Source of the DNA: Yponomeuta sedellus
Lineage: Eukaryota; Arthropoda; Insecta; Lepidoptera; Yponomeutidae
Assembly: GCA_934045075.1 (NCBI GenBank)
Contig: OW203740.1
Coordinates: forward strand, 20,101,878 to 20,165,877
DNA: 64,000 nucleotides
Direction of reading: 5' to 3'
Below, in pieces: positions 1 through 62,419 of the stretch; the first letter of the stretch is position 1, and each line of letters starts with the position of its first letter. The notes below the pieces were generated by a model. It saw only the letters and a program-made list of their open reading frames with translations, was not told the origin of the DNA and ran no database searches. The position numbers and the translations under genes were made by a program.

Positions 1-62
1 TCTAAATAGGTTTTTTAAATTTGTCCTTAGCACGGGTTAGTGCATTAAAAATAAATATAGTA
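1..62 (+). mobile_element. TFB element tail, cut by the window edge
   Basis: Matches the end of the TFB family: the AAATAGGTTTTT block, then CTTAGCACGGGTTAGTGCAT and an A-rich TAAAAATAAA end. The tRNA-like part lies outside the window. Confidence 0.8.
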
Positions 63-129
63 CAACTCACAGCTTCTGAAATTTTGAGTAAAATACTTTG
101 CTGTTTGTTTGAGGGATAAGAACCAGGAA

Positions 130-1600: not shown

Positions 1601-1713
1601 TGTGATGTGATGATGTGACGTGATGTGATGAAGTATGATATATAAAAAAAAACGTTTATTATAAGAAAGGATTTTGACATTGGTATCATTGGTATGATTG
1701 ATGTGATTATCTA

Positions 1714-1779
1714 TTATACTAGATTTTTATTTTTAATGCACTAACCCGTAAACAATTAGGACAATTTTAAAAACCTATT
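1714..1779 (-). mobile_element. TFB tail fragment
   Basis: Reverse complement of the TFB tail (ATTTTTAATGCACTAACCCG then AATTTTAAAAACCTATT), with a small internal alteration. The tRNA-like part is absent. Confidence 0.65.
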
Positions 1780-3174: not shown

Positions 3175-4040
3175 GTAAATTAAAAATTAATGTTATTCGG
3201 AATAAGTAATTGGTCTATGTTTACTTAAAGTTTAAGACTATACATAACAAATCACAGAGTCGCCTTGAAAAGTGTTATATAATTACAAAGTGTACTCTTT
3301 GTGTTACTGAAAAATGTGATCCGGCCCTTATTTAAATAATAACATTTGTAAATCCTATTTAGAGGCTAAAAATTCCACTCATGCCGGGATTCGAACCCGA
3401 GACCTCTGGATATCCGTGCCAGCGCTCTTTCCAACTGAGCTAATGGGCGACTCATCGGCACCAGTGAAATTTCGAACCTCTTTACAATGTTCTCTGTATT
3501 ACGTATGGAATTTTTAGCCACTAAGTAAGTTTTTGAAATTGTCCTTAGCACGGGTTAGTGCATCAAAAAGAATATCATTACACAAATTTTAAAATAAATG
3601 TATCGTGATCTTTTAGTAAGATAAAAGACAAAAAACCTTTCGTTTTTAAAAATTATTAATCCTCTATCTCCGTCCAAAATACATTATAGAGAGTTCAAAA
3701 GTTATGAAATGTCTGTTTTATTATTTTAAAAACAATAATTGCCGGAATATTTTTTTTTAAATTATAAACTTGAACTTTAGAAATCTCAAGAAACGTGGTT
3801 GAGATGGAGCGAAAAAGCAGATATTTACTGCAAAAAGTGTACGGTTTCTTAAACAAAGATTGCGTTTAACAGTTTTAAGTCATTAACATAATGTTCTCCA
3901 AAAAGCAAACTTTCAGAAAATTTTGGACTTCATGTTATGTCTAGTCTCAAACTTTAAGTAAACATAGACCAATTACTTATTCCGAATAACATTAATTTTT
4001 AATTTACTGAAGTGATGTCCCGGAAAAAAATATTGTCGTA
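3143..4040. repeat. Inverted pair of mariner 3' ends
   Basis: About 90 bp at 3143-3232 recur inverted at 3950-4040 with few mismatches; both carry ATGTTATTCGGAATAAGTAA. The left arm includes the last codons of the mariner fragment. The spacer holds a TFB insertion (3352-3570) and otherwise unmatched AT-rich DNA. Confidence 0.75.
3352..3570. mobile_element. TFB element: inverted tRNA-like arm plus forward tail
   Basis: Left part is the reverse complement of the tRNA-like domain and head (GGGATTCGAACCCG is the inverted B box). At about 3508 it switches to the forward strand (GGAATTTTTAGCC) and ends with the forward TFB tail. Flanks show only a doubtful, diverged target duplication. Confidence 0.85.
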
Positions 4041-4104: not shown

Positions 4105-4860
4105 TCACTGGTCATCAGCACACATGATCTTGGTGATCAGTGCGTGTGAGACTTTAGTGCGAGCCTTAAGTCTAGCCAAGTTGAAAAGGCTACCGTCTGT
4201 GCGGAAGCGGATGCGAACTCCTTGAGAAACAGTTTGTAAGACTCCTCTAACTACCACCGCAAAGTATAAGGCGAACAGAGTATTAGCTAAAACGCAACCT
4301 TGCTTCACCCCACAGGTAACGGGGAAGAAGTCTGTCTGATCACCGTCTATGGCAACGCAGCATTGCATGTCGTCATGCAGGAGTCTAAGCAGTGTCACAA
4401 ACTTTTCCGTGCACCCAAGCTTACCTAGCACCAACCATAGAGCTTCCCGAGGCACGCTGTCAAAAGCCTTCTCTAGGTCCACAAAGCAAAGGTTTAGCTG
4501 ACGACCCTGTTTTCTGCTCTTTTCTTGCAGTTGACGCACATAGAATATAGCTTCGCATATGCCTTGGTCCGGTCGGAAGCCAAACTGGATTTCTGGCAGA
4601 ATCTTAACGGACATGTTCTTTAGGCGGTTTAAGATAACTGTAGCAAAGACCTTTCCGGGGGCAGAAAGAAACGAAATGCCGCGATAAGCGTTGCAGTCAG
4701 ATCGGTCACCTTTGTTCTTGTAGAGAGCATTTATGCGCGATTCTTTAAAGGTATCCGGAGCGCGCTCCTGCTCCCACATGCGAACAAATAGTTCCCAGAC
4801 CAGCTTATGCAACTTCTCTCCGCCGTATTTTATGAGCTCTCCTGGTGAGGTCAATACCAA
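4105..4860 (-). pseudogene. Non-LTR retrotransposon reverse transcriptase fragment
   Basis: 251 open codons of a LINE-type reverse transcriptase, the longest coding signal in the window. Visible RT blocks in order: NAYRGISFLS (residues 57-66), FGFRP (93-97), motif A CFVDLEKAFDSV with Asp128 (125-136), motif B GVKQGCVL (184-191), RTDGSLFNLARLKARTK (about 219-235), and motif C as CADD (247-250). The frame stops right after motif C (CADDQ, stop), so the thumb, C-terminus and endonuclease are absent. The start is not a real start codon: the homologous frame simply begins here, so the element is truncated at both ends. It resembles a widespread metazoan LINE family with FADD at motif C; I do not assign a clade. 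The reading frame is otherwise intact, which suggests recent loss or a domesticated piece; the former is likelier. Confidence 0.85.
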
Positions 4861-8134: not shown

Positions 8135-8356
8135 GAAAACTATTATTATTACATATAACATAACATTTTACATACAAGCACATACATTGCTTCTGGCGCC
8201 ACACTAGGATACCCTGTGTCGTGGGAACCAGAAACAACGACATCACAAACATGTTAACATCCAAGACCTGGACTTTTTTTTGTTCCCAGCCGGGATTCAA
8301 ACCCGGGACCTCTTGCATGGTAGGCAGACGCGCTACCGCTACGCCACAGAGGTCGT
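8135..8356 (-). mobile_element. SINE-2 copy
   Basis: Reverse complement of the copy at 9747-9937: a tRNA-like head with inverted B box GGGATTCAAACCCG near 8292, then GGGGCCAGAAGC-type body and a GTATGT-rich end. Box A is degenerate. Confidence 0.8.
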
Positions 8357-16080: not shown

Positions 16081-16199
16081 GATTAACGGCCGGGTCTCGG
16101 AAACCGGCTGTAAATGGTAGGCATTCGAAACAAAACTGAAGAGATACTTAGTTAAAATTAGATAAGCTGACAAATACTCTTTATGTACACTTTTTGTTG

Positions 16200-16336
16200 C
16201 AGTAACCCGTGCTGAGGACAATTTTTAAAACCTATTTAGAGGCTAAAAATAACGCCCATGCCGGGACTTGAACCCGCGACTAAAACACCTAACTGCAAAG
16301 TAGGTACTCGGGGCTGCAAGTGATGCAAATTACTGA
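16200..16336. mobile_element. TFB element: inverted tail and half tRNA, then forward head
   Basis: Inverted tail and 3' half of the tRNA-like domain (GGGACTTGAACCCGCGAC), then at 16280 a switch to the forward head (CACCTAACTGCAAAGTAGGT). The switch point is unlike that of any other copy. Confidence 0.8.
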
Positions 16337-17908: not shown

Positions 17909-18074
17909 CAGAGGCTAAAAATTCCACCCATACCGGGATTCAAACCCGCGACCTCTGGCATGCTGGTGAGTCAGCTCACCATTAGCTCAGTTGGAAAGAG
18001 CGCTGGCACGGATAGCCAGAGGTCGCTGGTTCAAATACCGGCATGGGTGGAATTTTTAGCCTCTAAATAGGTTT
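17909..18074. mobile_element. TFB element: near-complete inverted pair
   Basis: Inverted 3' half of the tRNA-like domain, a switch near 17961-17980 (GCATGCTGGTGAGTCAGCTC), then the full forward tRNA-like domain with A box TTAGCTCAGTTGG and a forward end at AAATAGGTTTA. Confidence 0.85.
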
Positions 18075-19010
18075 ATGAAAGTACTTGTTGATCTTTATAA
18101 CATTGATATTATTTAAATTGTATAATCATTTATGCCATTATAAAATAATTGTTCCTTATAGAGAGATTGTTCCTTATAGTTCCTTATTGTTCCTTATAGA
18201 GTTCCTTATAGACCTTAGAAGTTAATAAAGTACAAATTTTAAGAAAAAATGGTAATGAACTGAATAAAAGTCACAACTAAGTTTTAAGTGCCATCTTTGT
18301 TAAAAGATTTAAAGATGTTTCACTTTGATTTTTGTATTGATTTGATATGAAGGTGCTTGTTGATTCTGTGAAATTTAAGTCAATTAATATTTTATTGTTA
18401 AAGTTAGGATTTGAATAGAAATAAAAGATCATCGTAGGTTACTAAGATAGTACAGATGTAAAGCATTTTTTTTACCTAATAGTATTACATTGTTCACAGT
18501 CAATAGTAGCTATGTAGTAACTAGATATCGAATGGTGAAATTTGATGTTTCCTTCCCTGAATAATTTTTAAACGCTATTTTATAACTGTCGCTTTTAATA
18601 AAAATGCTGGTTTTCGTAACTTTTGTCTTTGAATTTACTAACAACAGGAAAATTCCTGAAAAGAAATCAAAAAGGTCCTTATTGTATTTCTGAACTTAAC
18701 TGATATGTGGCAAAATAATACAGCACTATTTCATAATCACTCTACAAAAAGGACGTATCTCAAAATAATTAGTTTTATTTCGTGAGATAATTAGGAAATA
18801 GAGAGTTAAATCGAAAAATGTATGTTAACTCTTGCTCGATGTTTAAGTAAGGGGAATAAACAATATAATATTGATTCACATTGGATACATTCCATAAAAC
18901 ATTTAAGACTTTGCAATGCAATAACTTCGATACAAAACCAGTTAACTGTTTTTCGTCAATTGTGAAAAAATAAGTTTTTCGACTTAGTGCTGTCTTGTTC
19001 TACGGGTGCG
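18075..19010. other. AT-rich DNA; short GTTCCTTAT repeats
   Basis: Six GTTCCTTAT(AGA) words cluster at 18150-18210. Otherwise nothing recognised. Confidence 0.5.
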
Positions 19011-19262: not shown

Positions 19263-19417
19263 TGAGATACGTTCTTTTTGACATTTGTAAATTTGATTGT
19301 TATTACGTACGGAGTTTAATCTTGACTTGTAATGAATATTACTAATAAATGATGTCTATGTCTATATATAACTATGCGTAAAAATTGTAAAATAAATGGT
19401 TTTAATCAGTTTTATTT

Positions 19418-19595
19418 AAAAACCTATTTAGAGGCTAAAAATTTCACCCATGCCGGGATTCGAACCCGCAACCTCTGGCTATCCGTGCCAGCGCTCTACC
19501 AATTGAGCCAATGGGCGACTCACGGCATCAGTGAAATAGGTTTTTAAATTTGTTCCTTAGCACGGGTTAGTGCATTAAAAATAAAAATAGTTTAC
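19418..19595. mobile_element. TFB element with 12-bp target duplication
   Basis: Inverted tRNA-like domain (19445-19520), a switch at about 19540 (CAGTGAAATAGGTTTTT), then the forward tail. Flanked by TCAGTTTTATTT at 19406-19417 and 19596-19607, so the whole inverted structure arrived as one insertion. Confidence 0.92.
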
Positions 19596-19607
19596 TCAGT
19601 TTTATTT

Positions 19608-24891: not shown

Positions 24892-25098
24892 TAAATAGAT
24901 AGATAGATAGAATATTCTTTATTGCATGTAAACCAGGGATTAGATAAAAGACTTTAAAAAATACAGTACAGTACAAGTGGCGGCCTTATTAATAAAAGTA
25001 ATTTCTTCCAGATAACCACTGACAGAAAAGAAGAAACGGAAACTGAAATACGGGTAGTCGGCGCAACTAAACAATATTAGACAACATAAGAGAAATTA
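24892..25098 (-). mobile_element. LINE-K 3' end
   Basis: (ATAG)n tail, GAATATTCTTTATTGCATG and GTGGCGGCCTTATTAATAAA: the reverse complement of the copy at 29225-29400. Confidence 0.7.
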
Positions 25099-25099
25099 T

Positions 25100-25360
25100 A
25101 CTTTTTCTTTTTAATGCACTAACCCGTGCTAAGGACAATTTAAAAACCTATTTAGAGGCTAAAAATTCCACCCATGCCAGGATTCGAACCCGCGACGTCT
25201 GGCTATCCGTAATACAGAGAATATTGTAAAGAGGTTCGATATTTCACTGATGCCGGTGAGTCGCCCATTGGCTCAGTTGGAAAGAGTGCTGGCACGGATA
25301 GCCAGAGGTGGCGGATTCGAATCCCTGCATGGGTGGATTTTTTAGCCTCTAAATAGGTTT
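25100..25360. mobile_element. TFB element
   Basis: Inverted tail and 3' half of the tRNA-like domain, a switch at about 25211 (TATCCGTAATACAGAG), then forward head, complete tRNA-like domain and end. B box GGATTCGAATCCC is present in the forward arm. Confidence 0.85.
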
Positions 25361-25490
25361 ATAAGTGAAATTTTCATTTCAGAAACCGGCCCTTAGAGCT
25401 TCGTGTGTGTGCCTCGGCTTTGCTTCGGCCCACATTTGGACGTTCGTCCATCAATTCTTTTTTCGCTGGCCTTGAAGTAATCTATCTTTT

Positions 25491-28543: not shown

Positions 28544-28582
28544 GAATTGTCCTTAGCACGGATTAGTGCTTTAAAAAAATAT
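28544..28582 (+). mobile_element. TFB tail only
   Basis: AATTGTCCTTAGCACGGATT then AGTGCTTTAAAAAAATA, attached to the broken end of the SINE-4. Confidence 0.65.
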
Positions 28583-33845: not shown

Positions 33846-34078
33846 TATTCATGGACATATTACACAGATGTCGTTAGCCCTATACTAAGTTCAACTAAAT
33901 GACTTGTGTTACAGGTGCCAACTCGACGATAGATTTAATACAGTAAATACATAGATAACATCCAAGACCCGAGAAAAACTAGAAAAGTTTGTTACCTCGT
34001 TTGACCCGGCCGGGGATCGAACCCGAGACCTTCGGTTTAACAGTCAGCGTGCTAAACCGCTGCGCCACCGAGTCCGTC
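33846..34078 (-). mobile_element. SINE-3 copy
   Basis: Reverse complement of 52971-53212, including the tRNA-like head with inverted B box GGGGATCGAACCCGAGACC and A box region CTGCGCCACCGAG. Confidence 0.85.
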
Positions 34079-36355: not shown

Positions 36356-36383
36356 ACTACCTTCATCATCATCATCATTATAT

Positions 36384-36668
36384 TCTTTTTGTTGCACTAA
36401 CCCGTGCTAAGGACAATTCTAAAAACCTATTTAGAGGCTAAAAATTCCACTTATGCCGGAATTCGAACCCGCGACCTCTGGCTATCCGTGCTAGCGCTCT
36501 TCTAACTGCGCTAATGGGTGACTCACCGGCATTAGTGAAATTTCGAACCTCTTTATAATGATTTATTTACCTCTTTGTATTGCTTACAGGCGGCAACATC
36601 TGGCTGAAGTAATTTGCATCACTTGCAGCCCCGAGTACCTACTTAGCCTCTAAATAGGTTTTTAAAAT
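36384..36668. mobile_element. TFB element: long inverted arm, short forward end
   Basis: Inverted tail, full inverted tRNA-like domain and most of the inverted head, to GAGTACCTACTTA at about 36642, then forward GCCTCTAAATAGGTTTTTAAA. ATCATCATC on both sides may be the target duplication but lies in a CAT repeat. Confidence 0.85.
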
Positions 36669-39070: not shown

Positions 39071-39078
39071 ACTATTAA

Positions 39079-39265
39079 TTATACTATTTTTATTTTTAAT
39101 GCACTAACCCGTGCTAAGGACAAATTTAAAAACCTATTTAGAGGCTAAAAATTTTACCCATGCCGGGAGCTCAATTGGTAGAGCGCTGGCACGGATAGCC
39201 AGAGGTTGCGGGTTCGAATCCCGGCATGGGTGAAATTTTTAGCCTCTAAATAGGTTTTTAAACCT
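39079..39265. mobile_element. TFB element with 8-bp target duplication
   Basis: Inverted tail, only the first part of the inverted tRNA-like domain (ACCCATGCCGGGA), a switch at 39168, then forward GCTCAATTGGTAGAGCGCTG through the B box GGGTTCGAATCCC and the forward end. ACTATTAA at 39071-39078 and 39266-39273. Confidence 0.92.
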
Positions 39266-42118: not shown

Positions 42119-42148
<30 letters not shown>

Positions 42149-42308
42149 CATACATACATACATACATACATACATACATACATACATACATACATACATA
42201 CATACATACATACATACATACATACATACATACATACATACATACATACATACATACATACATACATACATACATACATACATACATACATACATACATA
42301 CATACATA
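42119..42308 (-). repeat. (CATA)47 microsatellite, the LINE-H tail
   Basis: 47 uninterrupted units, read (TATG)n on minus, directly after the LINE-H ORF2 end at 42309. The long open frames on both strands are artefacts of the tetramer. Confidence 0.95.
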
Positions 42309-43668: not shown

Positions 43669-43682
43669 AGGATAATTTGATT

Positions 43683-44135
43683 ATACTATTTTTATTTTTA
43701 ATGCACTAACCCATGCTAAGGACAATTTTAAAAACCTATTTAGAGGCTGAAAATTCCACCCATGCCGGGATTCGAACCCGCAACCTCTGGCTATCCGTGC
43801 CAGCGCTCTTCCAATTGAGCCAATGGGCGACTCATCGGCATCAGTGAAATTTTGAACCTCATCTGCATCACTTACAGCCCCGACTACCTACTTTGTAGTT
43901 AGGTTTTTACATCGGAATGATATCACTGTACCCACATGATTATACTATTTTTATTATTAATGCACTAACCCGTGCTAAGGACAATTTTAAAAAACCTATT
44001 TAGAGAGGTTCGAAATTTCACTGATGCCGGTGAATCACCCATTAGCTCAATTGGAAGAGCGCTGGCACGGATAGCCAGAGGTTGCGGGTACGAATCCCGG
44101 CATGGGTGGAATTTTTAGCCTCTAAATATGTTTTT
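43683..44135. mobile_element. TFB composite (three partial units) with 14-bp target duplication
   Basis: Inverted full unit (43683-43937), a second inverted tail joined tail-to-head (43938-44005), then a switch to forward head, tRNA-like domain and end. AGGATAATTTGATT at 43669-43682 and 44136-44149 shows that all 453 bp entered together. Confidence 0.92.
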
Positions 44136-44163
44136 AGGATAATTTGATTTAGGTTGTCTTGCC

Positions 44164-44820
44164 AACATCATCATCATCATCAGCCCATTATGTTCCCACC
44201 GAGGGGCACGGGTCTCTTCCCTGAGATAGGTATAGGCCATACTCCACCACAGGGGCCAAGTCCGGATTGATAGAGGCTTGCAAGTCTAGTGGCTCGTCTT
44301 ACAGTCAGAAGTTTTCAAGCCACCCTAATCCTCTGACTTGGCTTAACGACTGCCATCTATCAACGCAGCCAGCACCAACTGCTTAACGTACCTTGCGACG
44401 CAAGGAACCACTCGGAAAAATACCACTAGCGTTAGTCAAAGACGTTTTATACTATTTTTATTTTTAATGCACAAACCCGTGCTAAGGACAATTTTAAAAA
44501 ACCTATTTAGAGGCTAAAAATTCCACCCATGCCGGGATTCGAACCCGTGACCTCTGGCTATCCGTGCCAGCACTCTATCCAACTGTACGTAATACAGAGA
44601 ATAGTGTAAAGAGGTTCGAAATTTCACTGATGCCGGTGAGTCGCCCATTGGCTCAGTTGGATAGAGCGCTGGCACGGATAGCCAGAGGTCGCGGTTTCGA
44701 ATCCCGGCATGGGTGGAATTTTTAGCCTCTAAATAGGTTTTTCAAAGACGGTTTACCCATCCATGCACTGAACACGCCCTGTGTTGCTTAACCGTCGTGA
44801 ACCGACGAACGCAAACCGTC
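44164..44820 (-). mobile_element. SINE-4b copy, split by a TFB
   Basis: (ATC)n tail, TTCCCACCGAGGGGCACGGG, GTCCGGATTGATAGAGGCTT, TGGCTTAACGACTGCCATCT to GTTAGTCAAAGACG. It resumes at 44742 with GGTTTACCCATCCATGCACT and GCTTAACCGTCGTGAACC, as in 53587-53930. Confidence 0.85.
44445..44741. mobile_element. TFB element with target duplication of at least 9 bp
   Basis: Inverted tail and inverted 3' half of the tRNA-like domain, a switch at about 44588 (CCAACTGTACGTAATACAG), forward head, full tRNA-like domain and end. TCAAAGACG at 44436-44444 and 44742-44750. The uninterrupted SINE-4b elsewhere confirms the empty site. Confidence 0.93.
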
Positions 44821-49904: not shown

Positions 49905-50605
49905 ATACTTTATTGCATTCCACAAGTTTCAAGGTTGTTACATAATAACTTAACAGTTATTTGATAAGATCTTTGTGGACCCTGTAGGGCACGCAACATT
50001 TTAAAGTGCTATATAAAAGTATTTAAAAACCTATTTAGAGGCTAAAAATTTCACCCATGCTGGGATTCGAACCCGCAACCTCTGGCTATCCGTGCCAGCG
50101 CTCTACCAATTGAGCCAATGGGCGACTCACGGCATCAGTGAAATTTCGAACCTCTTTACACTATTCTCTGTATTACGTACAGGCAGCGACATCTGACTTA
50201 TAAGCAAATTGCATTACTTACAGCCCCGACTTACTTCCTTAGCACGGGTTAGTGCATTAAAATAAAAATAGTATATATAAAAGTATGTATTACATTAATT
50301 TAAATTTAATTTGATTAATTAAATATACAATTTTAATTATATTTATAAAGTTACATTTATACAATTATTTATCTCATTTCATCTATACTATCTTTTAAAT
50401 ATTCTTCTATCTTATAATAACATTTTGAAATTAGTATTTTCTTTAAATCTTTATTGAAACTGTAGTCGTTATTTAATTCTTTGAGGTGATTTGGGAGTTT
50501 ATTATAAATTTTTATAGCCATTACTAATGTACTGGAAGAGTGGAAGAGTGCGCTGCAATACAACTTCGTTCTAATGCAGCTGAAATATAGGGCGAAGCCT
50601 CTCAT
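49905..50605 (-). pseudogene. LINE-M ORF2 C-terminus and 3' UTR, split by a TFB
   Basis: Minus frame to 50369 reads HSSSTLVMAIKIYNKLPNHL then KDLKKILISKCYYKIEEYL, a typical CR1/jockey-like LINE protein end of about 70 residues before the stop. The 3' UTR continues to 49905 and ends with GGAATGCAATAAAGTATTGA. It is interrupted at 50023-50273 by a TFB. A second copy of the UTR is at 61140-61310. Confidence 0.75.
50023..50273. mobile_element. TFB element with 13-bp target duplication
   Basis: Inverted end, inverted tRNA-like domain (GGGATTCGAACCCGCAACC) and inverted head to CCCGACTTA (about 50233), then the forward tail CCTTAGCACGGGTTAGTGCA. TATATAAAAGTAT at 50010-50022 and 50274-50286. The uninterrupted LINE-M at 61140 supports the empty site. 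Confidence 0.93.
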
Positions 50606-53930: not shown

Positions 53931-54058
53931 AATTGATCACTCAGGCAGCCGGGGCTACGAGTAATTCTTAATGATCTTTGTAAGTCTGGTATTTTACCTA
54001 GCTCAGAGATCTGAGACTTCACGATTTTATCTGCACAATTTTTATATAAATAAATATT

Positions 54059-54436
54059 ACGGATAGCCAGAGGTCGCGGGTTCGAATCCCGGCATGGGTG
54101 GAATTTTTAGCCTCCAAATAGGTTTTTAAAATTGTCCTTAGCACGGGTTAGTGCATTAAAAATAAAAATAGTATAATCATGTGGGTACAGCGATATCATT
54201 CCGATGTAAAAACCTAACTGCAAAGTAGGTAGTCGGGGCTGTAAGTGATGCAATCTACTTCAGCCAGATGTCGCTGCCTGTACGTAATACAGAGAATAGT
54301 GTAAAGAGGTTCGAAATTTCACTGATGCCGGTGAGTCGCCCATTAGCTCAGTTGGATAGAGCGCTGGCACGGATAGCCAGAGGTCGCGGGTTCGAATCCC
54401 GGCATGGGTGGAATTTTTAGCTTCTAAATAGGTTTT
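54059..54436 (+). mobile_element. TFB forward dimer with 8-bp target duplication
   Basis: A 5'-truncated unit (54059-54175: anticodon arm to tail) joined directly to a full head, tRNA-like domain and end (54176-54436). The tRNA-like domain is 54337-54410: 7-bp acceptor stem (CGCCCAT/ATGGGTG), D stem GCTC/GAGC, anticodon stem CTGGC/GCCAG with loop ACGGATA, T loop TTCGAAT, A box TTAGCTCAGTTGG, B box GGTTCGAATCC. The loop lacks U33 and one extra base lies before the 3' acceptor strand, so it is not a working tRNA. TAAATATT at 54051-54058 and 54437-54444. Confidence 0.93.
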
Positions 54437-55739
54437 TAAATATTATCTTTTCTTATCTCGTAAAATAATGATTTTTTGTGCATTTACTCGCTTTTAAGAA
54501 CGTTTGGAATTGAATGAAAAAGAAAACTAAAGTTAGCTCTCGAGACAACCGTTCATTGAGAAAGCTTGCTGTATTTTGACTCTTAAGCCACTGCGGCTTA
54601 AGAGTTAGTTTGCTATATTCTGAGGCTTAAGTCAGAGTTATAAGTTGGCTTATCCAGATTACACAAACGCTACAGAAGTTTTCATAAGTCGAAATAGCTT
54701 ATCGAAAGCAAATCTGAATCAACACTTGTTCAGTGAAATAAATCAATCAGCTTATGAAAATAAGCCTCTGTATGAAGAGAAAATACCAAAGCGGTATCGA
54801 TTATTACTTTAACGGTATATCCCAAGAACTGCATGATGCCTTGGGTACGGATCGTGGAGAGCCTCGCCTTTATCTGAAGGTCTTCTAGCAGAACACTTCC
54901 AGTAGGATTCCCATAATTTGGAGGAGCCTCCAAATAGGTTTTTAAAATTGTCCTTAGCACGGGTTAGTGCATTAAAAATAAAAATAGTATAATCATGTGG
55001 GTACAGCGATATCATTCCGATGTAAAAACCTAACTGCAAAGTAGGTAGTCGGGGCTGTAAGTGATGCAATCTACTTCAGCCAGATGTCGCTGCCTGTACG
55101 TAATACAGAGAATAGTGTAAAGAGGTTCGAAATTTCACTGATGCCGGTGAGTCGCCCATTAGCTCAGTTGGATAGAGCGCTGGCACGGATAGCCAGAGGT
55201 CGCGGGTTCGAATCCCGGCATGGGTGGAATTTTTAGCTTCTAAATAGGTTTTTAAATATTATCTTTTCTTATCTCGTAAAATAATGATTTTTTGTGCATT
55301 TACTCGCTTTTAAGAACGTTTGGAATTGAATGAAAAAGAAAACTAAAGTTAGCTCTCGAGACAACCGTTCATTGAGAAAGCTTGCTGTATTTTGACTCTT
55401 AAGCCACTGCGGCTTAAGAGTTAGTTTGCTATATTCTGAGGCTTAAGTCAGAGTTATAAGTTGGCTTATCCAGATTACACAAACGCTACAGAAGTTTTCA
55501 TAAGTCGAAATAGCTTATCGAAAGCAAATCTGAATCAACACTTGTTCAGTGAAATAAATCAATCAGCTTATGAAAATAAGCCTCTGTATGAAGAGAAAAT
55601 ACCAAAGCGGTATCGATTATTACTTTAACGGTATATCCCAAGAACTGCATGATGCCTTGGGTACGGATCGTGGAGAGCCTCGCCTTTATCTGAAGGTCTT
55701 CTAGCAGAACACTTCCAGTAGGATTCCCATAATTTGGAG
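54109..55739. repeat. 816-bp tandem duplication, copies identical to the eye
   Basis: Copy 1 54109-54924, copy 2 54925-55739. Covers the TFB head, tRNA-like domain and about 480 bp of flank (with the CTCTTAAGCC / GGCTTAAGAG hairpin). I see no substitution between copies. One extra G (54924) sits at the joint. Confidence 0.93.
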
Positions 55740-59895: not shown

Positions 59896-60639
59896 GTATC
59901 GCGAATCATTATGAAATACTAAGCTAATTTAGTTTAAGTGATATTTTATTTTGGAAGCTTGTTTACGTTATTCTGAAGAGTTGATGCTTTGGTTAACATT
60001 TCACCCTGTTTTCATTTTATTTTTATTTAATATTGGGAAGACTAACAGCAAATAACAAATAGTAACAAAAAACATTAAACATGTGTATGGTAAATTTCAC
60101 CCGGCATGGGTGAAATTTTTAGCCTCTAAATAGGTTTTTAAACATTAAACATACAGAAGGTCAATTATAAGTCTCCACTTACAGAAAAAACATTTTTAGC
60201 ACTTATTTAAGCTCTTAAAGCAAACATCCAGTGACAGTTTAAAACACTACATTAATACTTAAAAAAAAACAGAAACTTTCTATAAAGGCTGGTGGCGAGT
60301 TCTTTGAATAGATTTAAAAAAAAATTTTTTTTCATCGAAGTTAGTTTTTTAGTTTCTCAAACCTTTCTGAGTGTCGCACGTATATGAGTTTGGCCTATAC
60401 CTAGTTGATACTTTTTCCGAATGAAAAACTGGATTTACTCGCCTTGATCTGTTTGGAACACAGAAATTAAGTTGACTAAGCAACTGTGGACAGTCGATTT
60501 GACCAGACGCAATCCTATCTGCCCCTTGTGTAACTTTTCAGGTATACATTCTGAGTACGATAGTGGAATGTTTACTTAGCTCTGCCGTATAGATATGAAG
60601 CGTAATATGTATCACCCAAGCGTAACATGTATATTTTAT
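59896..60639. other. AT-rich DNA containing a minimal TFB
   Basis: Nothing recognised apart from the insertion at 60083-60139. Confidence 0.5.
60083..60139 (+). mobile_element. 57-bp minimal TFB with 13-bp target duplication
   Basis: Only the last bases of the tRNA-like domain and the end remain (GGCATGGGTG, AATTTTTAGCCTCTAAATAG, GTTTTT), preceded by an inverted scrap AAATTTCACCC. AAACATTAAACAT at 60070-60082 and 60140-60152. Confidence 0.9.
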
Positions 60640-61969: not shown

Positions 61970-62265
61970 CGACGTAATTACGTGAGACTTCCTTCTCTCT
62001 CTCTCTCTCTCTCTCTACAGCTCGTGAACCCGATATAACACGAACCCTCGTTATGAACCCAAATAATTTTTTTATTTAAATTCAATCTATGGCGTTCAGA
62101 ATATAGATTTTGGCTGTCGTTCGACTTTTTACGTAGAATTCCAAGACATAAGCCTTAGACTCGTATACGACATATTTGCTAATAAAGTGAGAACTTTCAC
62201 ACTGTTCTTTTATTAATTTGCTATATACATACCTTTAAAACCACTGTTAGTAATATTATTGCAAT
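61970..62265. other. AT-rich DNA with (CT)n
   Basis: (CT)n at 61994-62016. Nothing else recognised. Confidence 0.5.
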
Positions 62266-62419
62266 TTAAAAACCTATTTAGAAGCTAAAAATTCCACTCA
62301 TGCCGGGATTTGAACCCGCAACCTTTGGCTATCCGTGCCAGCGCTCTTTCCAACTGAGCTAATGGGCGACTCACCGGCGTCAGTGAAATTTCGAACCTCT
62401 TTACAATATTCTCTGTATT
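62266..62419 (-). mobile_element. TFB element, inverted arm only
   Basis: Inverted end, tRNA-like domain (GGGATTTGAACCCG) and part of the head, to TTCTCTGTATTC. It sits just upstream of Penelope-like coding. Confidence 0.8.

Follow-up and report, generated by a model that had tools for sequence, protein, structure and literature searches.

TFB, a repeat family of Yponomeuta sedellus, is in all probability (roughly 0.85) a non-autonomous retroposon with a unit of ~310 nt and a tRNA-like Pol III promoter, inserted by the protein of an EN-containing Penelope-like element (PLE) through priming on both target strands. The argument draws on what can be read directly in the DNA, namely the ends of the copies, their target duplications, junctions and tandem units, and on an autonomous PLE of this genome that shows the pattern too. 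Most arms stop, on their outer side, at one of two fixed points; every dimer with two classifiable ends has one SHORT and one LONG, a regularity that the original prediction had missed. Because its unit contains no RT/GIY-YIG reading frame, TFB is classed as a non-autonomous element inserted by PLE machinery rather than as a PLE in its own right.

The TFB unit and its abundance

The TFB unit is circularly 310 nt long, since the copy at 54059-54440 contains part of the tRNA twice, 310 nt apart. Numbered U1-U310, it comprises a head, the tRNA-like domain (~U159-U233), the SHORT end at U263 (..AATAGGTTTTT, also written ..AGGTTTTT) and a tail that extends 46-47 nt beyond it to the LONG end at U309/310 (..AAAAATAGTATAAT, also written ..AATAGTATAAT). 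Spacings of 309-311 nt found for the tail word reveal partial tandem units, which are pLTR-like. The tRNA-like domain with A and B boxes claimed by the original prediction is borne out: it folds according to ARAGORN and Rfam, and the internal boxes were picked out by eye. The family accounts for 7 of 8 ARAGORN hits and 11 of 13 Rfam tRNA hits in the window (the whole 64-kb stretch of DNA analyzed here); tRNA-like sequences outside it, at 8285-8351 and 34002-34074 on the minus strand (ARAGORN, Rfam), may be other tRNA-bearing repeats. The window has two reading frames of at least 150 aa, neither inside a TFB copy, and the 310-nt unit has no telomerase-like RT plus GIY-YIG frame. A 251-aa frame at 4105-4860 on the minus strand resembles, by eye, a fragment of a non-LTR (LINE) reverse transcriptase, and a long CATA microsatellite at ~42119-42305 yields a spurious frame of YIHT repeats.

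An exact 40-nt word of the TFB tail occurs 8,466 times in the genome and its reversed control not once. Nineteen random stretches of 10 kb (190 kb) hold 28 clusters, fragments and one 27-nt tRNA-only match included, or 147 per Mb; extrapolation to the genome (657.5 Mb in 57 contigs) gives, as an order of magnitude with fragments counted, ~90,000 clusters. The window is about twice as dense as the random stretches, with 18 clusters in 64 kb found by BLASTN with the 54060-54440 unit. About 16 of these are independent, because 8285-8316 is a 33-nt match to a tRNA-like sequence other than TFB and 54925-55256 is a duplicate, in keeping with the predicted 15 or more copies or fragments. The duplicate belongs to an 815-bp tandem duplication containing a TFB copy (54109-54923 and 54925-55739, 100% identical), either very recent or an assembly artefact. 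A scan of viral contigs for the TFB tRNA core found none, among records from which those close to the source genome may be absent.

Two linked subfamilies exist. The LONG end reads AATAGTG(TA), not AATAGTATA, in L027:418, L038:7625, L038:7952, L042:706 and L045:9295, perhaps marking a subfamily with a shorter unit. Within the unit, U129-U161 of the head is nearly complementary to U216-U247, which spans the 3' end of the tRNA and the short tail; this built-in foldback has a local score of 24, compared with a 95% point of 16 and a maximum of 27 in 2000 shuffles, and is perhaps the fossil of an older inverted dimer incorporated in the unit.

Ends, target duplications and junctions

The copies in the window and their flanks are listed below.

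43669..43682: left target duplication of copy A, AGGATAATTTGATT, read in the sequence; its partner lies at 44136-44149
43683..44135: copy A; left arm inverted with the LONG end on the left, switch near 44001-44030, right arm forward with the SHORT end
43755..43830, minus strand: tRNA-like domain of the inverted arm of copy A (ARAGORN; Rfam RF00005, 37.1 bits at 43759-43827)
44035..44110, plus strand: tRNA-like domain of the forward arm of copy A (ARAGORN, Rfam)
44136..44149: right target duplication of copy A, read in the sequence
44436..44449: left target duplication of copy B, TCAAAGACGTTTTA, from flanking-repeat scoring (match 13/14)
44450..44741: copy B; inverted arm with LONG on the left, switch at 44583-44585 where the arms overlap by 3 nt, forward arm with SHORT
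44742..44755: right target duplication of copy B, from flanking-repeat scoring
3344..3572: dimer; inverted arm with SHORT on the left, forward arm with the LONG side on the right, switch at 3505/3506, clear duplication absent
16191..16334: dimer fragment; switch near 16280, right arm ending at neither fixed point
17911..18080: dimer; switch at 17959/17960, SHORT on the right, left end at neither fixed point, clear duplication absent
19415..19598: dimer; SHORT left and LONG right, switch at 19534-19537, duplication TCAGTTTTATTTA
25095..25364: dimer; LONG left and SHORT right, switch at 25199-25210
36383..36668: dimer; LONG side left with an inverted arm of >240 nt, very short forward arm with SHORT, switch at ~36643
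39078..39262: dimer; LONG left and SHORT right, switch at 39168
50022..50275: dimer; SHORT left and LONG right, switch at 50236-50244, duplication TATATAAAAGTAT
54059..54440, plus strand: single-arm tandem copy displaying the 310-nt repeat unit, in the order partial tRNA, tail, head, tRNA, SHORT end
54925..55256, plus strand: duplicated part of the 54059-54440 insertion, within the exact 815-bp duplication
60083..60142: smallest dimer; inverted piece of ~11 nt with its outer end at neither fixed point, forward arm with SHORT, duplication AAACATTAAACAT
62265..62419, minus strand: single-arm copy with the SHORT end (BLASTN)
1..65, plus strand: fragment with the LONG end, truncated by the window edge (BLASTN of the window)
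1713..1779, minus strand: fragment with the LONG end (BLASTN of the window)
28545..28577, plus strand: tail fragment (BLASTN of the window)

The 80 clusters dissected come from 25 tail-selected, non-redundant loci (overlapping loci L002, L004, L012, L028, L030 and L031 excluded) as well as from the window and the random stretches; they include the 54925 duplicate and two tRNA-only matches (8285 and L042:2117), and four cut by locus edges were dropped, leaving 76. End classes were drawn wide, SHORT at U254-270 and LONG at U288-310 or U1-8. Among multi-arm clusters with intact edges, 43 of 45 are inverted at their start and forward at their end; one is -- and one +-, the latter looking like two neighbouring insertions. 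Outer 3' ends (n = 123) fall at U261-268 in 47 cases and at U306-310 or U1-5 in 51, with ten at U295-298, assigned to LONG, and 15 elsewhere. Wherever both ends of a dimer can be classified, one is SHORT and the other LONG (38 of 38, with no two-of-a-kind), ~37 of these being independent because L005 and L007, whose flanks are by eye common to both, are probably one duplicated insertion. Unselected sequence (window and random stretches) gives 20 of 20, with 3 dimers unclassifiable, a figure that matters because tail-selected loci must carry the long tail. The SHORT and LONG ends differ in sequence and do not mirror each other as inverted repeats; the presence of one of each is the 'tail' signature of PLEs.

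In five further dimers one outer end falls away from both fixed points (U82, U197, U247, U271 and U286), and the 60083 copy also lies outside the 38 scored dimers; the rule therefore either has exceptions or is obscured by the decay of old ends. The copies at 43683 and 36383 are likewise outside the 38, since the script chained each as one arm; by eye both are long/short. The SHORT arm is usually the longer cDNA: in 15 of 17 dimers it exceeds the LONG arm once 47 nt are subtracted from the latter (Wilcoxon P 0.0017). Arms may be longer than one unit, as is the left arm of copy A (tail-tRNA-head-tail), and reach 493 nt in dimers and ~3.4 units in L029, a single-arm copy, which resembles what tandem PLE RNA gives. 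Target duplications also flank single-arm copies, with SHORT and LONG ends alike.

Flanking repeats score at least 9 in 41 of 76 clusters, compared with 0.96 expected from shuffled flanks, and directly flank 32 of the 38 short/long dimers, as would follow from the predicted insertion of each rearranged form in one event. The prediction of such repeats thus holds, while their supposedly variable length does not: matched lengths, some of which may take in bases of the element ends, cluster at 12-14 bp in 24 of 32 dimers (12 bp in 11 cases, 13 in seven, 14 in six; others 9-19). The claim of a different switch point in every copy fares well, with positions in the window close to those predicted and nearly all of 45 junctions (window, random and tail-selected loci) distinct. 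Junctions shared within 3 nt are confined to L005/L007, L009/L026, L003/L025 and the triple L014, L038 and L039, which sits at the anticodon-stem palindrome in three copies with three different target duplications. The arms overlap by at least 3 nt at 17 of 45 junctions and by at least 5 nt at 8 of 45, compared with 4.9% and 0.5%, respectively, of simulated blunt joins.

Penelope-like elements and other comparable systems

The three dimers examined of an autonomous PLE in the same genome carry short and long ends and target duplications, and this element therefore inserts with the geometry of TFB. It was located at one place (L051) by an RT motif pattern, used because the Pfam GIY-YIG model missed its endonuclease: the domain falls below the Pfam cut-off in the PLE (E 0.08), and the only place matched by the profile across the genome was dropped as a PLE because it reads like the host SLX1 gene. 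A regular-expression search for PLE motifs in ~350 kb of this genome gave chance-like hits only. The reading frame combines an RT with a GIY-YIG-like C-terminus, and the protein has 232 relatives, the best named ones from Bicyclus, Cydia and Choristoneura. The element is young; it matches at least 116 places in the genome (a lower bound, 114 of 1829 candidates having been scored), mostly at 95-100% identity and with open frames of up to 817 aa. Neighbour pairs within 6 kb are -/+ in 28 cases, +/- in none and same-strand in 7, two of the three ++ pairs (C8 and C16) probably being pieces of one copy. Three of the 28 dimers, picked before their ends were seen, were examined: all three have one short end, ..AACTTTTTAA(TGCTA), and one long end ~36-45 nt further, ..CTGATTCTATAC(AACA), with duplications of 12, 12 and 15 bp.

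TTTTTAA occurs at the short end of both TFB and the PLE. Comparison of the TFB unit with the PLE 3' region gave no significant similarity (best local match 14 nt, P = 0.28), and because the TFB tail does not match this PLE, the element is not identified as the helper of TFB, nor as its ancestor. A 19-nt match between TFB and L051 was rejected as chance, being AT-rich and in the opposite sense to the PLE. In the PLE 3' region, L051 ~329-363 on the minus strand reads CTGAGG..CGAAACGCGTC, which resembles a minimal hammerhead motif; Rfam gave no match. Rfam likewise returned no hammerhead, a ribozyme expected in PLE pLTRs, in the window (gathering threshold), in 54050-54450 (E<=5) or in the PLE 3' region (E<=1), and since even this last region gave none, the search may be insensitive.

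With tRNA-derived SINEs, TFB shares a tRNA-like Pol III promoter, very high copy number, 5' truncation and target duplications. Ordinary SINEs of this kind bear one LINE-like 3' tail at their end and are inserted as a single-strand copy, whereas the two ends of most TFB dimers correspond to different start sites. The original prediction that TFB is unlike ordinary SINEs and TIR transposons was right in this, yet PLEs, including the one in this genome, do look so.

Like EN-containing PLEs of the Penelope/Poseidon type, as far as the available parts of their descriptions go, TFB forms head-to-head inverted copies and partial tandem units (PMC3846280, PMC11167929), has a tail at one outer end (optional and 30-40 nt in PLEs) and target duplications, and probably uses both target strands; unlike them, it is without a long ORF, measures ~310 nt per unit and carries a tRNA-like domain and a tail of 46-47 nt. 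The accessible portion of the rotifer account describes inverted pLTRs, a 31-bp tail optionally on one pLTR and TSDs of 8-10 bp (PMC3846280). According to the anole study, available in part, the PLE protein cuts and extends both strands, and reverse transcription begins at two internal sites next to each other that define the tail; in its in vitro reactions the top and bottom strands did not visibly differ in where synthesis started, whereas the two scored TFB ends always differ (PMC11167929).

TFB also recalls the short non-autonomous Penelope elements of heliconiines, prominent in some Lepidoptera, whose description, in the part available, includes no tRNA-like promoter, end rule or dimer structure (PMC6685494). 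With metazoan retrozymes, again from partial texts, it shares repeat units of ~150-300 bp, tandem copies and non-autonomy (PMC7761336, PMC7229834), and PLEs have been proposed as helpers of animal retrozymes (PMC7761336); retrozymes carry hammerhead ribozymes, with none found in TFB by the possibly insensitive Rfam search, and TFB has its tRNA-like domain. A tRNA-bearing PLE-inserted element was not found among titles and abstract openings of the open literature, a body of work with subscription papers mostly outside it.

Origin of the inverted dimers

The original prediction suggested for the inverted arms a cDNA that snaps back on itself, template switching during cDNA synthesis or a hairpin source RNA; snap-back, a hairpin RNA and template switching on one strand all predict arms of identical source. 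Both arms of most comparable dimers do come from the same subfamily: diagnostic site U234 is concordant in 20 dimers and discordant in 5, and variants common to both arms reach 13.1 per 1000 positions, compared with 6.6 after permutation (maximum 12.5 in 2000 permutations). The foldback built into the unit, head against short tail (24 versus 16), would also suit snap-back or a hairpin. The subfamilies are so strongly linked, however, that arm-shared variants do not separate one RNA from two sister RNAs, and a single-molecule origin predicts equal outer ends, whereas all 38 classifiable dimers have unequal ones. The arms of the duplication-flanked dimer L035:3343-3963, moreover, belong to different subfamilies, with 7 of 8 diagnostic sites different; it can be the product of two RNAs or of a mixed tandem transcript, and snap-back cannot yield such arms. 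A single-molecule origin is thus very improbable, and this part of the original prediction is not supported.

Twin priming yields a single fixed 3' end together with an internal piece in inverted orientation. A LINE-mobilized tRNA SINE with 5' inversions of this kind would explain the tRNA-like promoter, the 5'-truncated single-arm copies with target duplications and the target-primed look, and would fit the tiny 60083 copy with its one short end and small inverted internal piece, but in most TFB dimers both outer ends are fixed 3' start points and both arms contain the 3' region, and the duplications cluster at 12-14 bp; we give it no more credence than a folded-back molecule. The tight clustering of duplication lengths, the two fixed ends and the few shared junctions might suggest a fixed foldback or TIR DNA transposon that a transposase moved and that was rearranged later, a still slighter possibility, given that the TFB ends are different sequences rather than mutual inverted repeats, that single-arm and tandem copies with duplications exist, and that nearly all switch points differ; switch points shared by many copies would mark a fixed foldback ancestor, and here they are mostly not shared. 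Independent SINE insertions adjoining head to head, which might seem favoured in a family as dense as this one (147 per Mb in the random stretches), are hardly credible when one pair of target duplications encloses the whole dimer in 32 of 38 cases and 43 of 45 multi-arm clusters start inverted and end forward, with a single +- and a single --. From the original prediction, then, an RNA-templated family, inserted in one event and with separate switches in nearly every copy, stands; its account of how the dimers arise is not supported.

Insertion by a PLE protein, the reading preferred here, would begin with the protein, supplied by a helper family, nicking both target strands ~12-13 bp apart. 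Each free 3' end would then prime reverse transcription on TFB RNA, presumably made by Pol III, one strand starting at the SHORT site and the other, in a presumed strand order, at the LONG site. The two cDNAs would extend toward each other and be joined where they stop, often via a few complementary bases, and the product would be a dimer, head to head, whose switch point is its own and which is flanked by a target duplication of 12-14 bp.

A broader proposal, to which we give even odds, is that PLE integration is itself an asymmetric two-template reaction, in which a dimeric protein would nick both strands and start at the inner site of one RNA and at the outer site of another, leaving one short and one long end, and that TFB, a tRNA-promoted SINE with ~10^5 copies and possibly the first of its kind, exploits it. 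The one-short-one-long rule goes beyond the published PLE accounts, to the extent that their text is available (PMC3846280, PMC11167929).

For the mechanism of PLE insertion, TFB provides very many small, readable insertions that display two start sites, the use of one of each, a duplication of ~12-14 bp and joining by microhomology, features that turn PLE insertion into testable predictions. If the reading is true, TFB would supply natural products of the PLE reaction in very large number, from which its course can be read, and PLEs would join the machineries that carry tRNA-promoted SINEs.
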